Of a stretch of 64,000 bases of DNA, positions 10,406 to 17,733 are shown piece after piece. The stretch's first letter is position 1; each line of letters starts with the position of its first letter. The position numbers and the translations under genes are program-made. The stretch lies in the NCBI GenBank assembly GCA_903882745.1, contig CAIRYG010000005.1, positions 186,001 through 250,000 on the forward strand, in the 5' to 3' direction. The notes beneath the pieces were generated by a model. The model worked only from the letters and a program-made list of their open reading frames with translations. It did no database searches and was not told where the DNA came from. The DNA comes from an uncultured Gemmatimonadota bacterium (GTDB taxonomy: Bacteria; Gemmatimonadota; Gemmatimonadetes; Gemmatimonadales; Gemmatimonadaceae).

Positions 10406-11038
10406 CTACGTGCGGGACGGTATCAGGCGTCGGTCGACGGCAATCAAGATGGCGCTCATCACGGCGAGCGCGGCGGTAATCATACCCGAAACTTGGGCGA
10501 CCACGGGGTAGCCGAGCTTGGTGACATCAAGGAAGAAGTACGGATACCAGCCTTCAGCCGCCCCGCGCCCGAGCGAGTACACAAGATAGAGCGCGGGGTA
10601 GCCGAGCCAGGTCACTAACTGCGGAAAGGCGAGCGTTCCTTTTGGGACGAACCGCCACCAGAAGAGCAGCACGAGGAGTGGGACCACGTCGTGCACGAGT
10701 TCGTCGGCAACGATGCTGAGTCCCTTCGGGTGATAGGTGCTGCGCAGGAGCACGGAGTAGGCGACACCAACGAACAGAATGTGGATCGTGGTCGCCGAAA
10801 GCACGCCCGGGCGATTCGCCCATTCTGTCCAGCGCCCCGGTCGGGACCGTGCGACAATCGTGAACAGCACGGCCACAATCACGTTCGTGGTGATCGTGAA
10901 GTACCCGACCAAGAGCCAGAAGCCGTGCAGCACCGACGTGCCGGCGATCTGGGATCGGAGGACGCTGGTCACAGCCTGCAGGGCGAGCCCTGTCCAGCAG
11001 GTGACGGCGACAACGGTGGCGGCGGATCGACGGGTCAT
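10406..11038 (-). CDS. Pr6Pr-like integral membrane protein
   Basis: This is a 210-residue protein with about six hydrophobic segments. YFTITTNVIVAVLFTIVA, the HDVVPLLVLLFWW segment and the late GWYPYFFLDVTKLGY resemble the Pr6Pr/FAR-17a-like family of six-helix bacterial membrane proteins, whose activity is not established. ATG 11038 is chosen because hydrophobic coding sequence begins there; the frame extends upstream through the efflux promoter and is unlikely to be used. It is divergent from the efflux operon and separated from the downstream pqqD gene by 126 bases. Confidence 0.7.
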   Translation of the reverse strand: MTRRSAATVVAVTCWTGLALQAVTSVLRSQIAGTSVLHGFWLLVGYFTITTNVIVAVLFTIVARSRPGRWTEWANRPGVLSATTIHILFVGVAYSVLLRSTYHPKGLSIVADELVHDVVPLLVLLFWWRFVPKGTLAFPQLVTWLGYPALYLVYSLGRGAAEGWYPYFFLDVTKLGYPVVAQVSGMITAALAVMSAILIAVDRRLIPSRT

Positions 11039-11194
11039 GGTCGATAAGGTAGATGGACGAAACTCGGACCAAAAGCGAAGGGCATAGCCGGCGCCTGAGG
11101 CCCCACGCGAACAGCACACATCGCTGCCGCAAGATGCGTGGTTCGACACCGAGGCGCTACGGGATCCCCCGAAACTTTTTCCGGCCGTCGCCCG

Positions 11195-11223
11195 TTGAAT
11201 GCAAGTATTCACTTGCTTACAAT
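11195..11223 (+). promoter_or_regulatory. Sigma70-like promoter of the TetR-TolC/RND operon
   Basis: A -35 like TTGAAT (11195-11200) and a -10 like TACAAT (11218-11223) are separated by exactly 17 bases. The predicted transcript would start near 11230 and leave a leader of about 110 bases. Both hexamers are embedded in the two operator palindromes. Confidence 0.7.
11199..11218. promoter_or_regulatory. TetR-type operator O1 (imperfect palindrome)
   Basis: Inverted arms GCAAGT and ACTTGC are separated by ATTC. The site fills the spacer between the -35 and -10 hexamers. It has the same arms as O2, with centres 23 bases apart, which favours binding of repressor dimers to both. Confidence 0.75.
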
Positions 11224-11241
11224 GCAAGTGATCACTTGCAT
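11222..11241. promoter_or_regulatory. TetR-type operator O2 (perfect 20-base palindrome)
   Basis: ATGCAAGT and ACTTGCAT flank GATC to give an exact 20-base inverted repeat that covers the end of the -10 hexamer and the predicted start of transcription. Occupancy would block the promoter. The first downstream gene encodes a TetR-type DNA-binding domain, so autorepression is the natural reading. Confidence 0.8.
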
Positions 11242-11341
11242 GACCGGAGCTGGCGCGCGACGCGTCGGCTCCGGATCCACTACCGGCTTCATCCCCGCTT
11301 CATCCCCGCTTCACTACCACCGCGCGCAGGCGCGTTCCACC

Positions 11342-13366
11342 ATGTCCGTTTCCGTTCCAACCCGCACCCACGTCCTCGCCGCCGCTGCCCGCGTGTATGG
11401 CGAGCTCGGATTCCGCGGCGCCACCACGCGCAAAATCGCCGAGGCCGCCGGCGTCAACGAAGTCACCCTCTTCCGCCAGTTCGGAAGCAAGAACGCGCTG
11501 CTCCTCGAAGCGCTTCGGGTCTCCGGAGCCACCCATCCGGACACCGCGCTTCCCGAAATCCCCGTGGATCCGCTCGCGGAGCTCACCGCATGGAGTGCGC
11601 ACATGCGGAAATCGCTGGTGGCAATGCGCGGCATGATCCGCAAAGCCATGGCCGAGTTCGAAGTGAACCCCGCCATGCCCAAGTGCATGACGCACGGCGC
11701 GGCGCAGTCTCTGATGAACCTGCGTGATTATCTCACGCGACTGGTCGAGCAGGGGGCGGTCCGCGCCGATGCTGACGTGATCAGTGCGGCGTCGATGTTG
11801 ATGAGCGCCATCTTTCACGACGCGCTTGGTCGCGACATGATGCCACACGCCTTTCCGCAGCCCGTCTCAGCCGCGCCCACCAACTACGCGCGCCTCACGC
11901 TGCAGTCCCTCGGCTACGATTTTGCCGCGCTGCAGCCAGCCAGCGATCGCAAGCGAACCATCACCCGCGTCCAACGCGCGCTCACCGTCGCCCTGCTCCT
12001 CGTTGCCGCGCCGCTGGCAGCGGTCGCACAGGGAGCAACCGCGCAGGGAGCAACCGCGGCGTCCATCTCACTCGCCGACGCCCTCACCATGGGACAGAAG
12101 GCGAGCCACACCGTGCACAGCGCCGAGGCCGGCGTGATGCGTGCCGGTGCACAACAGCAACAGGCGCGCGCCCAGTACCTGCCGCAGATCAACGGGACCT
12201 TCGCCTACCAGCGCTTGATGCAGTCGCAGTTCTCAGCGATCACCGCAGGGAGCAGCTCTGGCTCCGGTTCGGGTTCCGGCTCCAGCGGCGGCACGAGCAG
12301 CTTCGGTGACATCACCAAGATTTTCGCCTCGCCGAACACCGCCACACTCGGCGTGTCGCTCACGCAGAATGTCTACACCGCAGGCAAGCTGGAATCGGCG
12401 ACGAAGGGCGCGGCGGCTGCACGCACCGCCGCCGATATCGGACTCGACGCCGCACGCGCGCAGGTCAATCTCGACGTAGCCCAAGCCTACTTCGATGCCG
12501 TCGCTGCCAAGGCGCTCGTCGACATCGCCGACAGCACGCTGGCCCAGGCCGAACGCACGCTCGCACAGACCACCGTCAGCAAGCAGGTGGGAAGCGCGGC
12601 CGAGTTCGACCTGCTGCGCGCGCGGGTCGCCCGTGACAATCAGCGTCCGGCACTGATCCAGGCGCGCGGCAACTACGATCTCACGATGATGCGCCTCCGC
12701 CAGCTGTTGGGCATCTCGCTCGATAAACCGCTCGCGCTGACCACCCCGATTCGCGACGAAGGGATCGCCGCCGAGGCGCCGCCGGCCGATACGGCGGTCG
12801 CGCACCGCTCCACCGTACGCCAGGCCGCGGCCAACGTCACCGCGCAGCAGTTCGCGCTGTCGGCGGCCGACATGAACCGGTTGCCGTCGGTGCAAGTGTC
12901 GAGCGCCTATCAGCGGTTTGCATATCCCGTGGGCATTCTGCCGCTGGCCCTGAACCAGTACTACCCGAACTGGACCATCTCGCTCGGGTTGTCGGTGCCG
13001 GTCTTCACCGGTGGCAAGCTCACGGCCGACCGCGCGATTGCGCAGGCGAACTTGATTGACGCACAGCAGAGCTTTGAGCAATCACGTGAACTCGCGGCGC
13101 TCGATGCGCGCACGGCGATTCTCCAGCTCGAGCAGGCGCAAGCATCCTACGCGAGCAGCGTGGGAACCGACGAGCAAGCGCGCCGAGCCTATACGATTGC
13201 AGAAGTGCGTTTCAATGAAGGGATCTCCACCCAGGTGGAGCTGTTGCAGAGCCGCACGCAGTACGAACAGGCGCGGCTGAACCGCGTGCTCGCAGCGCGC
13301 GACTTGGAAGTCGCCCGCTTGCGCGTGGCCTTCCTGAAGGATCTGCCCGTCACCGTGCGGCGCTAA
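11342..13366 (+). CDS. Fused TetR/AcrR repressor - TolC outer-membrane efflux protein
   Basis: A single 674-codon frame encodes two normally separate proteins. Residues 1-195 are TetR/AcrR-like, with the DNA-binding helix-turn-helix in RKIAEAAGVNEVTLFRQFGS (~30-49) and a helical ligand domain. Residues ~203-230 read as a complete signal peptide: basic n-region RKR, hydrophobic LTVALLLVAAPLA, AVAQ cleavage site. Residues 240-674 are a TolC-family barrel/coiled coil with two pseudo-repeats (NVYTAGKLES and VPVFTGGKLTAD) and a Ser/Gly linker near 300. No ATG, GTG or TTG occurs in frame close to the internal signal peptide, so separate initiation there is not evident. It is followed by the adaptor and RND genes. 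ATG 11342 is chosen as the first Met of conserved TetR sequence; no strong Shine-Dalgarno precedes it. Confidence 0.9.
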   Translation: MSVSVPTRTHVLAAAARVYGELGFRGATTRKIAEAAGVNEVTLFRQFGSKNALLLEALRVSGATHPDTALPEIPVDPLAELTAWSAHMRKSLVAMRGMIRKAMAEFEVNPAMPKCMTHGAAQSLMNLRDYLTRLVEQGAVRADADVISAASMLMSAIFHDALGRDMMPHAFPQPVSAAPTNYARLTLQSLGYDFAALQPASDRKRTITRVQRALTVALLLVAAPLAAVAQGATAQGATAASISLADALTMGQKASHTVHSAEAGVMRAGAQQQQARAQYLPQINGTFAYQRLMQSQFSAITAGSSSGSGSGSGSSGGTSSFGDITKIFASPNTATLGVSLTQNVYTAGKLESATKGAAAARTAADIGLDAARAQVNLDVAQAYFDAVAAKALVDIADSTLAQAERTLAQTTVSKQVGSAAEFDLLRARVARDNQRPALIQARGNYDLTMMRLRQLLGISLDKPLALTTPIRDEGIAAEAPPADTAVAHRSTVRQAAANVTAQQFALSAADMNRLPSVQVSSAYQRFAYPVGILPLALNQYYPNWTISLGLSVPVFTGGKLTADRAIAQANLIDAQQSFEQSRELAALDARTAILQLEQAQASYASSVGTDEQARRAYTIAEVRFNEGISTQVELLQSRTQYEQARLNRVLAARDLEVARLRVAFLKDLPVTVRR

Positions 13367-13395
13367 CAATGACTTACTCACAGAGGAATACCCCA

Positions 13396-14529
13396 ATGCA
13401 GTCCCGCTCCATCCGCGCCCTGCGGGCGCCCCTGCTCACACTCGCGCTCGGCGCGACGAGCGTACTCGCCGCGTGCGGCAAAAAAGCCGACGTCGCGAGC
13501 AGCGCGATTCCAGAGCAAATCATCGGACCCGAGCTCGTCGCACTCGTCGCGCAGACGACCATCACGAGCGGTCCCTCGATCGCCGGATCGCTCGTGGCCG
13601 ACAAAACCGCGTCGATTCGCGCCGAAGTTGGCGGACGCGTGACCGCCGTGCTCGTAGAGCCCGGTGCGCACGTGAGCAAGGACACGCCGCTCGCCCGCGT
13701 GGACGACAATGCCGTACGTGAGACCATGCTTGGCGCCAAGAGCGGTGTCACGCAGGCGCAGCTCGGTGCCGATATCGCCAAGCGCGACCAAGACCGTGCG
13801 GAACGACTCCTGGCCGCCGGTGCTGTCGCCGAGAACGCGGTGGAGAATGCGCGCCGCGGGAATCTGGCCGCACAGGCCGCGCTCGAAGATGCCAAGGCTC
13901 GCTTGGCGAATGCCCAGCGCAACCTCGACAACACCACGCTCAAGGCGCCATACGATGGCATCGTGAGCGAGCGGCAGGTGAATGCCGGCGACATTGTCGC
14001 GCCCGGCGCACCGATGTTCACGATTGTCGATCCCTCCACGATGCGCCTTGAAGGCTCCGTGCCCGCCGACCAACTCGGCGCGGTGCACCTGGGGGCGAGC
14101 GTCAAGTTTGGGGTCACTGGCTACCCCGGTAAGTCCTTCGTGGGCACCATCAGCAACATCTATCCGAGCGCGGATCCGCAGACCAAGCAGGTACGCCTCT
14201 ACGCGCGCATCCCGAATGCCGGGAGCGGCTTGGTGGCCGGGTTGTTTGCCTCTGGTCGGGTGGCCAGCACCAGCCACTCCGCACTTGCTATCCCGATGAA
14301 TGCGGTGGACCAGCGCGGACTCAAGCCGTCGGTGCTTCGCCTCAGGGGCGGCAAGGCCGAGAAGATCGAGATCACCTTGGGTGTGCGTGACGACGAGACC
14401 GAGAACGTGGAGGTGCTGACGGGACTCGCGGTCGGCGACACCGTGCTCGTCGGGCGCGCGCAGGGCATCACCGTTGGTGCGCCGGTGAAGGTCAATGCGC
14501 CGTCGGACAAACCCGCAGCAAAGAACTAG
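13396..14529 (+). CDS. RND efflux periplasmic adaptor lipoprotein (MFP/HlyD family)
   Basis: The 377-residue protein starts at ATG 13396, preceded by GAGGAA at a normal distance. The lipobox LAAC places the lipidated Cys at residue 27, anchoring it to the inner membrane. It shows the membrane-fusion order: barrel-sandwich half-motif (IRAEVGGRVTAVLVEPGAHV), alpha-hairpin rich in Ala and Arg, second lipoyl half (LKAPYDGIVSERQVNAGDIV), beta-barrel and membrane-proximal domain. Such adaptors bridge the RND pump and TolC. It lies 29 bases after the TetR-TolC frame and 9 bases before the pump gene. Confidence 0.93.
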   Translation: MQSRSIRALRAPLLTLALGATSVLAACGKKADVASSAIPEQIIGPELVALVAQTTITSGPSIAGSLVADKTASIRAEVGGRVTAVLVEPGAHVSKDTPLARVDDNAVRETMLGAKSGVTQAQLGADIAKRDQDRAERLLAAGAVAENAVENARRGNLAAQAALEDAKARLANAQRNLDNTTLKAPYDGIVSERQVNAGDIVAPGAPMFTIVDPSTMRLEGSVPADQLGAVHLGASVKFGVTGYPGKSFVGTISNIYPSADPQTKQVRLYARIPNAGSGLVAGLFASGRVASTSHSALAIPMNAVDQRGLKPSVLRLRGGKAEKIEITLGVRDDETENVEVLTGLAVGDTVLVGRAQGITVGAPVKVNAPSDKPAAKN

Positions 14530-14538
14530 GGGATTACC

Positions 14539-17500
14539 ATGTTCATTTCAGATTTTGCCATTAAGCGCCCCATCGTCACCGTCGTCTCAATGGTGGCGCT
14601 GGTGGTGTTCGGCGTGTTCTCCATGGCGCAGTTGCAGACGGACGAGTTTCCGGATGTCGCGGAGCCCATCATCAACGTGGCCATTCCGTATCCGGGCGCG
14701 GCGCCAGACGTCGTCGAGCGCGAAGTGCTCGATCGCGTGGAAGAGGCGATCAGCGGCATCAGCGGCGTCGATCGTATCAACGGCAGCGCACAGGACGGCT
14801 TTGCGAACATCACGGTCGCGTTCGTCTTTGAGAAAGACATTCAGCAGGCCTCGCAAGACATCCGCGACAAGATCAGCTCCGTGCGCGACCAGCTTCCGCC
14901 TGAGATCAAGGAGCCGGTGCTCTCGCGTTTCGATCCGGGCGATCAGCCCATTGTGCAGCTCTCGCTGAACTCCACCACGCTTGACGCGCCGAGTCTGACG
15001 CGGATTGCCGATCCTGGCATCACCAAGGAGCTGCGCGGCATTGCCGGTGTGGCCGAGGCGACCGTGGTCGGTGGAATCGAGCGTGAGTTGACCATCGAGA
15101 TTCGCCCGGACGCCATGCAGGCTGCAGGAATCAGTGTGGCGCAGTTGGTGGCCGCGTTGCAGCAGCAGAATCTCTCGGTGCCGGTCGGGAAAATCGACGG
15201 CACACTCGACGAGCGCTCGATTCGATTGCGCGGCAAGCTCGAGACGCCCGCCGATTTCATGAACCTGGTGGTCGACCAGCGCGGCGGACGGGCAATCCGA
15301 CTTGGAGAGATTGCGACCGCCAAGGATGGCACCGCCGAAGCGCGGTCGTCGGCGATTTACGGGCAGAGCAGCACCGGCGCGCAGAGCGATGCCGTCGGTA
15401 TCATGATCAAGAAGTCCAAGGGATACAGCACGTCACAGGTGGCGGCGAAGGTGCTGGCAAAGGTCACCGCACTCAAGACCGCGCTCCCCGCAGGCGTGCA
15501 TCTCGATGTGATTCAGAACTCCGGCGACCGCGTGGAACGCTCGGTGCAGAACGTGGAGGAGACGCTCATCGAAGGCGCACTCCTCACGGTGCTCGTCGTG
15601 TTCCTGTTCCTGAACTCCTGGCGTTCCACCGTCATCACCGGCTTAGCGCTGCCGGTGTCGGTGATGGCGAGCTTCATCGCCGTCTATGCCTTCGGCTTCA
15701 CGCTCAACACGATGTCGCTGCTCGGTCTTTCGCTGGCGATTGGTATCTTGATTGACGATGCCATCGTGGTGCGCGAGAATATCGTGCGCCACATCGAGAT
15801 GGGGAAAGATCACTTCCGCGCGTCGCACGAGGGGACCGATGAAATCGGCATGGCGGTTGCGGCCACCACCTTCTCGATCGTCGCCGTGTTCGTGCCGATT
15901 GGCTTTATGTATGGAACCGCGGGGCAGTGGTTCAAGCCATTTGCGTTGACGATTGCCATGGCCGTACTCGTGTCGCTCTTCGTGTCCTTCTCGCTCGATC
16001 CGATGCTTTCGGCGTATTGGCCCGATCCGGAGAAAAAGGAAGGGGAGCACCGCGGGTGGATTACGCGCCAGCTGGATGCGTTCAATGCCTGGTTCGACCG
16101 CATGAGCGAGAAGTACACGCTTGTGATTCGCTGGGCGCTCCGGCATCGGTGGAGCATGGTGGCGCTCGCGGCCGTGACATTTGTGGCAGCGATTTGGCTG
16201 CAAGTGAAGTTCGGCGGCTTTGGCTTTGTACCGGACAGCGATCGCAGCGAGCTGACGATGCAGGTGCAGACGCCGCCAGGGTCGAACTTGGACTACACGC
16301 GCATGAAGACCATGGAAGTCGCGCGCCTCGCGCTCGGGCACAAGGACCTCGTGAACTACACGTTCGCGACGGTCGGTGGGAGCAGCGCGGGCATGCAGCC
16401 CGGTGCCGCGCTCGGCGCGGTGGACTTAGGAACCGTGTACGTCCGCATGAATCCAAAGGCGACGCGAAAGGTGTCGCAGCAGGAGTTCGGCGGCATGCTC
16501 CGTGACCAGATCGCCAAGATTGGTGGGGCTAAGGCCTTCATCTTCACGGGCGGGATGGGCGGCGCCCGCAAGCAGATTCAGGTGGAAATGCGCGGCAAAG
16601 ATGCGCGCACACTGGGCGTACTGGCTGACAGCGCGATGAAGCTCGTGGCGAAGGTGCCGAGTGTCGTTGATCTCGCACTGAGCACCAAGGGACAGAAGCC
16701 GGAGCTCGAGATCAACGTGAATCGTCAGCTCGCCGGATCGATGGGTGTGACCGTGGGACAGTTGGCGCAGGCGCTGCGACCGGCGTTCGCCGGTGTTGAT
16801 GCGGGTGACTGGGTCGATCCGACTGGCGAGAACCGTAAGGTGCGTGTGCGTCTCGCGAGCGACGCGCGCAACAAACAGTCGGACATCCAACGGCTACCGA
16901 TTGTCGTGGCCGGACTCGGCGGCGGGCGCAGTGTGATGCCGCTCGGGCAGATTGCGACCGTCACCTCCGGGCTTGGACCGGCCCTGATCTCCCATTTGGA
17001 TCGTGAGAATGTGGTGGTCGTCGAGGCCAACGTGCAGGGGCGGTCCATTGGCGAGGTCAATCAGGATATCAGCAAGGCGCTCGCCGGACTCGCACTCCCG
17101 GCGGGATATCGCATTACCGCCGGCGGCGAAGTGAAGGATCAGCAGGAAGTATTCGGCAAGATCTTCGCGGCGCTCGGTGTGGCGGTGCTGCTCATGTACC
17201 TGATTCTCGTGATGCAGTTCGGCAGCTTCCTCGAGCCGATCGCTATCATGGTCTCGTTGCCGCTCTCGCTGATCGGTGTGGTACTTGCGCTGATTCTCAC
17301 CGGCGGGACGCTCAACATCATGAGTATGATTGGCGTGATCCTGTTGATGGGCATCGTGGCCAAGAACGCCATTCTGTTGATCGACTTCGCCAAGTGGGGC
17401 CAGGAGAACGGCCTCGAGCGCGAAGATGCAATCGTCGAAGCGGGGCGCGTCCGTCTGCGTCCCATCATGATGACGACGCTGGCGCTCGTGGCGGGGATGG

Positions 17501-17733
17501 TCCCGGTGGCGCTCGGCAACGGCGAGGGCGCAGACTTCCGTGCGCCACTTGGCCGCGCGATCATCGGCGGCGTGATTACCTCCACGTTCCTGACCTTGCT
17601 CGTGATTCCGACGATCTATGAGATTCTCGATGACTGGCGCATCAAGCTGACCGGGTTGTTCGACGTTCCGGTGCGTCCCAACACCGAGGAGTACATGGTG
17701 CCGAAGGAGGCGCGGAAGAAGTCGGCGCACTGA
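14539..17733 (+). CDS. RND family multidrug efflux permease (AcrB/MexB-like)
   Basis: The 1064-residue protein has the HAE-RND layout: TM1 (IKRPIVTVVSMVALVVFGVF), a first large periplasmic loop (PDVAEPIINVAIPYPGAAP), TM2-6 with the proton-relay Asp pair in GILIDDAIVVREN, a second periplasmic loop, and TM7-12 ending in RPIMMTTLALVAGMVP. It is a proton-driven inner-membrane pump working with the adjacent adaptor and TolC-like protein. Substrates (drugs, dyes, lipids or metabolites) cannot be told from sequence, although the sequence is of the drug rather than the heavy-metal type. Start ATG 14539 follows an AGGGGA Shine-Dalgarno. A strong hairpin lies 25 bases after the stop. Confidence 0.95.
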   Translation: MFISDFAIKRPIVTVVSMVALVVFGVFSMAQLQTDEFPDVAEPIINVAIPYPGAAPDVVEREVLDRVEEAISGISGVDRINGSAQDGFANITVAFVFEKDIQQASQDIRDKISSVRDQLPPEIKEPVLSRFDPGDQPIVQLSLNSTTLDAPSLTRIADPGITKELRGIAGVAEATVVGGIERELTIEIRPDAMQAAGISVAQLVAALQQQNLSVPVGKIDGTLDERSIRLRGKLETPADFMNLVVDQRGGRAIRLGEIATAKDGTAEARSSAIYGQSSTGAQSDAVGIMIKKSKGYSTSQVAAKVLAKVTALKTALPAGVHLDVIQNSGDRVERSVQNVEETLIEGALLTVLVVFLFLNSWRSTVITGLALPVSVMASFIAVYAFGFTLNTMSLLGLSLAIGILIDDAIVVRENIVRHIEMGKDHFRASHEGTDEIGMAVAATTFSIVAVFVPIGFMYGTAGQWFKPFALTIAMAVLVSLFVSFSLDPMLSAYWPDPEKKEGEHRGWITRQLDAFNAWFDRMSEKYTLVIRWALRHRWSMVALAAVTFVAAIWLQVKFGGFGFVPDSDRSELTMQVQTPPGSNLDYTRMKTMEVARLALGHKDLVNYTFATVGGSSAGMQPGAALGAVDLGTVYVRMNPKATRKVSQQEFGGMLRDQIAKIGGAKAFIFTGGMGGARKQIQVEMRGKDARTLGVLADSAMKLVAKVPSVVDLALSTKGQKPELEINVNRQLAGSMGVTVGQLAQALRPAFAGVDAGDWVDPTGENRKVRVRLASDARNKQSDIQRLPIVVAGLGGGRSVMPLGQIATVTSGLGPALISHLDRENVVVVEANVQGRSIGEVNQDISKALAGLALPAGYRITAGGEVKDQQEVFGKIFAALGVAVLLMYLILVMQFGSFLEPIAIMVSLPLSLIGVVLALILTGGTLNIMSMIGVILLMGIVAKNAILLIDFAKWGQENGLEREDAIVEAGRVRLRPIMMTTLALVAGMVPVALGNGEGADFRAPLGRAIIGGVITSTFLTLLVIPTIYEILDDWRIKLTGLFDVPVRPNTEEYMVPKEARKKSAH

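Follow-up and report, generated by a model that had tools for sequence, protein, structure and literature searches.

Recurrent fusion of a TetR-family repressor to a TolC-family outer-membrane factor at the head of an RND efflux operon in Gemmatimonadaceae

ToxR and CadC hold a DNA-binding domain at the inner membrane. According to a major review, the TetR regulator of tripartite efflux pumps is a local regulator, and its gene is divergently oriented (PMC8277102). RsiP and RsiV, which comprise a cytosolic regulatory domain, one transmembrane segment and an external domain, are cut by signal peptidase (PMC8844934), while FecR is trimmed by RseP (PMC8144685). Here we describe a locus in which a TetR repressor and a TolC-family outer-membrane factor share a single reading frame. 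The window, i.e., the whole stretch of 64,000 nucleotides that was analysed, belongs to a genome of 3.06 Mb in 14 contigs (G000), and the relatives named below are Gemmatimonadetes/Gemmatimonadaceae assemblies. A search of open-access papers, which form a partial set, yielded no earlier description of a TetR-TolC fusion.

The fused frame and its pump operon

The TetR-TolC fusion in the window is real (Table 1). The initial annotation had described a single ORF with two intact halves, and this is borne out: the open frame was read directly and recurs in related genomes, and a complete TetR and a complete TolC were recovered by Pfam, AlphaFold and Foldseek. From stop to stop, the frame extends over 755 amino acids; position 11342 was taken as its start in agreement with the TetR starts of relatives. 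The TetR_N helix-turn-helix is found at residues 12-57 (Pfam, E 4e-13, 49.2 bits against a cut-off of 24), and the all-helical ligand/dimer domain that completes this half is of normal size, as judged from AlphaFold and PDB chains. Foldseek returned separate TetR-chain matches over about 185-190 residues, e.g., MexL and PfmR. The OEP domain pair of the other half (Pfam, E 2e-45, 155 bits against a cut-off of 22) falls into two stretches, the best of which spans residues 244-457, and Foldseek matched this half to TolC/OprM chains with E about 1e-16. In the AlphaFold model of the fusion (mean pLDDT 76), TetR helices at 8-189 lead into a linker of low confidence (197-238), after which comes a TolC fold with barrel strands at 282-291, 332-345, 516-527 and 540-551 together with long helices. 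As a homologue, the TolC half fits the TolC family; the departure lies in the ORF as a whole.

Two length variants were observed in TolC. A Gly/Ser-rich insert at 12251-12301 (residues about 304-320) varies in length among relatives, and the TolC of L036 (G014) carries an in-frame duplication of 11 residues (AIAQANLIDAQ), near window residue 567, that the window copy lacks.

Table 1. Coordinates of the fused frame, its upstream control region and the downstream pump genes in the window
Feature	Position	Strand	Details and evidence
Sigma-70-like promoter	11195..11223	+	TTGAAT (11195-11200), 17-nt spacer, TACAAT (11218-11223)
Operator 1, GCAAGTATTCACTTGC	11201..11216	+	Inside the -35/-10 spacer
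Operator 2, GCAAGTGATCACTTGC	11224..11239	+	Directly after the -10; core of a 20-bp perfect palindrome
Fused tetR-tolC frame	11342-13366	+	Uninterrupted, 674 codons + stop
TetR/AcrR repressor half, residues 1-191	11342..11914	+	Pfam, AlphaFold helices 8-189, PDB TetR matches
Linker and basic n-region, residues 192-212 (YDFAALQPASDRKRTITRVQR)	11915..11977	+	
Predicted signal h/c-region, residues 213-229 (ALTVALLLVAAPLAAVA)	11978..12028	+	Hydropathy, (-3,-1) rule
Mature TolC-family outer-membrane factor, residues 230-674 + stop	12029..13366	+	Pfam OEP, TolC/OprM fold
Periplasmic adaptor (membrane fusion protein, MFP)	13369..14529	+	Pfam HlyD_D23, E 5e-29
RND transporter (AcrB/AcrD/AcrF type)	14539..17733	+	Pfam ACR_tran, E 1e-261

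The adaptor and RND pump genes downstream of the fusion are intact, and the order TetR-TolC-MFP-RND is preserved in relatives wherever the contig extends far enough. A TetR-then-TolC order also occurs in other efflux operons of the family. The 1.04-Mb replicon NZ_CP007130.1 of Gemmatirosa kalamazoonensis carries a TetR-TolC frame that is not orthologous to that of the window (L123, G033:C4:719500-728500); it measures 699 codons from stop to stop and has its own adaptor and RND genes directly after it. A fused frame related to this type is followed directly by an adaptor in L128 (G262). The paralogous TetR/TolC tandems L124, L125 and L126 (G020, G024 and G026), which precede EmrAB-like pumps, were rejected as fusions, as one in-frame stop separates TetR from TolC. 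No orthologous fusion was found in the plasmid collection.

Fused and split relatives

A search of relatives for the same domain order, as the initial annotation had proposed, found it fused in several clades and split in others. Six species of the window's genus, that of the window included, have the fused frame (identity is 95% in G014 and about 64-66% in G010, G002, G012 and G015). Of the 17 genomes of a second genus, 16 show the junction, and it is fused in every one (16/16), among them the single-contig genome G157. G019, which belongs to a third genus, has the fusion as well. Protein identity among the assemblies that share the frame falls to about 52% (45% for G019), and TolC identity between members of the second genus falls to about 68%. 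A sequencing error or metagenome-assembly artefact is ruled out, since the frame is common to independent assemblies and to a single-contig genome. A pseudogene is likewise ruled out by the conservation of both halves, the mostly synonymous change and the retained operator; between G000 and G014, the linker codons differ mostly at synonymous positions (pS 0.40, pN 0.08, from few sites). Two fused frames of the second genus, L117 (G390) and L120 (G074), are broken inside TolC, for which an assembly error and a true pseudogene are both candidates.

Elsewhere in the window's genus, as in further genera and families of the order, two genes side by side encode TetR and TolC separately, commonly with a stop/start overlap of 4 nt. 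Separate ORFs in close relatives had been named as grounds for doubting the fusion; many relatives are of this kind, and the fusion nevertheless stands, as other relatives are fused and the split arrangement is likely the ancestral state. A tree of TetR plus TolC requires four changes between fused and split states, three of them forced by well-supported branches, although the tree is unrooted and does not by itself distinguish gain from loss.

The junctions themselves differ in structure. In the two fused clades of the window's genus they contain a basic linker of 15-20 residues, whereas the junctions of the second genus lead from the last TetR helix (YVRLFLRSLGAT) directly into the hydrophobic core. 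Because of these differing structures, separate gains are favoured, and the fusion probably arose repeatedly; a single ancestral fusion followed by losses, which an unrooted tree would allow, is disfavoured on the same grounds. Taken between "SLG", conserved in TetR, and "SL.DAL", conserved in TolC, junctions are 90-171 nt long in fused and 113-239 nt in split loci, and a fused junction falls short of its counterparts in near split relatives by some 50-110 nt. The window junction measures 156 nt from the glycine, or 165 nt from a slightly earlier residue. Split TetRs of the genus end in basic tails before the stop (e.g., ..AKRRVS-stop), and a comparable basic stretch occupies the position of the signal n-region in the fused clades of this genus. 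As a control for proneness to fusion at the same loci, tetR-tolC was fused in 17/65, tolC-MFP in 0/65 and MFP-RND in 0/62, a comparison biased by the retrieval of the loci with a fused query and by the possibility that the other joins are topologically harmful.

Internal signal, start codons and operator

An internal signal peptide had been proposed near residues 203-230, and hydropathy together with the (-3,-1) rule placed it at 203-229, with an n-region RKRTITRVQR (203-212), an h/c-region ALTVALLLVAAPLAAVA (213-229) and a predicted cut at AVA^Q. It would be of the Sec/signal peptidase I type, cut after residue 229. Its position, about 200 residues inside the frame, differs from the usual position in the TolC family at the N-terminus of the ORF. 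In the fused loci examined and in most split ones, the hydrophobic core is retained, as is an AXA-like site that Q follows almost always. The uncharged hydrophobic run averages 20.6 residues (mean KD 2.87) in fused loci and 17.4 residues (KD 2.46) in split loci, means that are uncorrected for relatedness; the longer run is owed mainly to the second genus, and that of the window is 17.

The claim that TolC lacks a usable start of its own, which the related genomes strengthen, holds for the interval between 11846 and 12088, where no in-frame ATG, GTG or TTG occurs. The nearest in-frame starts upstream (ATG 11840 and ATG 11843) lie within the TetR domain; a CTG is also present at 11930. The next in-frame start downstream, ATG 12089, falls within mature TolC. 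Given that the TetR stop, the TolC start and the TolC n-region are all absent from the fused junctions, the initiation site of TolC itself has probably been lost, and this missing start is the main argument that the sequence offers against independent translation.

The promoter in Table 1 is the sole promoter-like match in 11050-12100, for which shuffled sequences lead one to expect 0.1, and the two operators that overlie it are spaced 23 bp from centre to centre. The 5' end of a divergent ORF on the minus strand (10406-11227), which has no Pfam match, extends into this region. Searched for with at most one mismatch within 180 bp upstream of each locus, the operator GCAAGYNNNNRCTTGC was found at 47/48 loci (17/18 fused and 30/30 split), the fused locus L049 being without a recognisable site; three chance sites turned up in 212 kb of sequence from elsewhere in these loci. 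Only four exact sites occur in the whole genome, two of them here. As the tandem operator is conserved in fused and split loci alike, the repressor is probably functional. The TetR/TolC divergence ratio is 0.81-1.34 in fused clades and 0.98-1.52 in split ones, thus within or below the split range, and TetR is therefore not decaying faster where it is fused. The repressor half looks to be under selection, and it probably controls the pump whose channel shares its frame.

Could one frame instead give two products, the full-length chain being minor or non-functional and TolC arising mainly from CTG 11930, by rare non-AUG initiation, or from starts inside TetR? In-frame internal starts do occur in other bacterial genes, the sister species G014 has an ATG at the position of the window's CTG, and in 9 of the 11 second-genus loci compared a GTG in the last TetR helix precedes a plausible signal peptide that it would be able to start. 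We nonetheless regard this as unlikely. None of the internal starts is shared by all fused clades: the last-helix GTG is missing from L050 and L051, and L034 has no start between an ATG in the end of its TetR and the mature protein. By eye, the candidates are without a clear Shine-Dalgarno sequence. Moreover, products begun at 11342 would stay fused, since no stop lies between the halves, and a soluble TetR made without a stop codon would be left unexplained.

The fusion might also be a tolerated accident, in which small deletions join the genes, the product is exported and cut, and TetR is degraded or acts as before, with no regulatory meaning. With the ancestral TetR-then-TolC order and its frequent 4-nt overlap, a small deletion can easily join the genes, which would suit the several origins of the fusion. 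Loss of TetR function should, however, have let the operator erode, and a whole genus has retained TetR, operator and open frame (16/16 visible junctions), so that this explanation, too, appears improbable.

Proposed mechanism and comparison with known systems

The reading that we prefer, at a probability of roughly 60%, is an autoregulated RND operon in which the outer-membrane factor has gained TetR as a cytosolic domain at its N-terminus and this domain is cleaved off as an inner-membrane-anchored repressor. The TetR domain would fold in the cytosol, and the internal signal would engage SRP/Sec in a type II (N-in) orientation. The cut by signal peptidase I would come after AVA (229^230), freeing mature TolC to continue to the outer membrane, while TetR (about 229 residues) would, by analogy, stay anchored in the inner membrane by its C-terminal transmembrane helix. 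The anchored dimer would bind the tandem operators and repress its own operon, and a pump substrate, perhaps arriving from the membrane, would bind TetR and bring about derepression. Release of TetR from the membrane by a site-2 protease is possible; peptidases of this family (M50) are encoded in the genome. If the protein works, cleavage is likely, because a TolC still joined to an inner-membrane helix would hardly be able to move on to the outer membrane. The conserved operator and the conserved AXA^Q site make signal peptidase cleavage with a tethered repressor, as put forward in the initial annotation, more plausible. The 1:1 amount of the two halves, also put forward there, is not peculiar to the fusion: split relatives with the 4-nt overlap are probably translationally coupled already, and the main effect of fusion would therefore be on the location of TetR and not on its dose.

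The recurrence of the join suggests that the pump repressor finally comes to be tethered to the inner membrane. A further step, which we put forward tentatively and at somewhat less than even odds, is that the fusion is a recurrent "polyprotein" regulator, in which export and cleavage of TolC install an active, anchored TetR that senses membrane-dissolved substrates near its own operon; if true, repression would be tied to TolC export. A cytosolic repressor and an outer-membrane protein made as one chain, kept throughout one genus and gained, it seems, on several occasions, provide natural replicates that bear on the export of a protein whose signal sits behind a folded domain. The system also offers a test of whether efflux repressors can act from the membrane, where many of their substrates dissolve. 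Were cleavage to occur as proposed, one small deletion would have turned an ordinary operon into the source of a tail-anchored transcription factor.

With repressors of the AcrR/MexL type, the locus shares the TetR fold, a palindromic operator over the promoter and an adjacent RND pump; such repressors are normally separate, soluble and usually divergently encoded (PMC8277102), whereas here the repressor is co-directional with, and joined to, the outer-membrane factor. The TolC/OprM family shares the OEP domain pair, the TolC fold, the AXA-site signal and the pump operon, and differs in that the signal here follows a DNA-binding domain. The layout predicted from sequence alone, a cytosolic regulatory N-terminal domain, one signal-like transmembrane segment and an extracytoplasmic domain, is that of RsiV, RsiP and FecR, whose processing is by signal peptidase (RsiV, RsiP) and/or a site-2 protease. 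These proteins, however, control sigma factors and are cut on signal, whereas the TetR-TolC fusion combines a DNA-binding repressor with a channel that would be released as a structural protein, probably by constitutive cutting. Its N-terminal domain is a TetR and not an anti-sigma domain, and the likeness to RsiV and RsiP is at most one of mechanism, not of membership. With ToxR and CadC the fusion would share a DNA-binding domain at the inner membrane, but their DNA-binding fold is a different one, and their periplasmic part is a sensor and not an exported channel.
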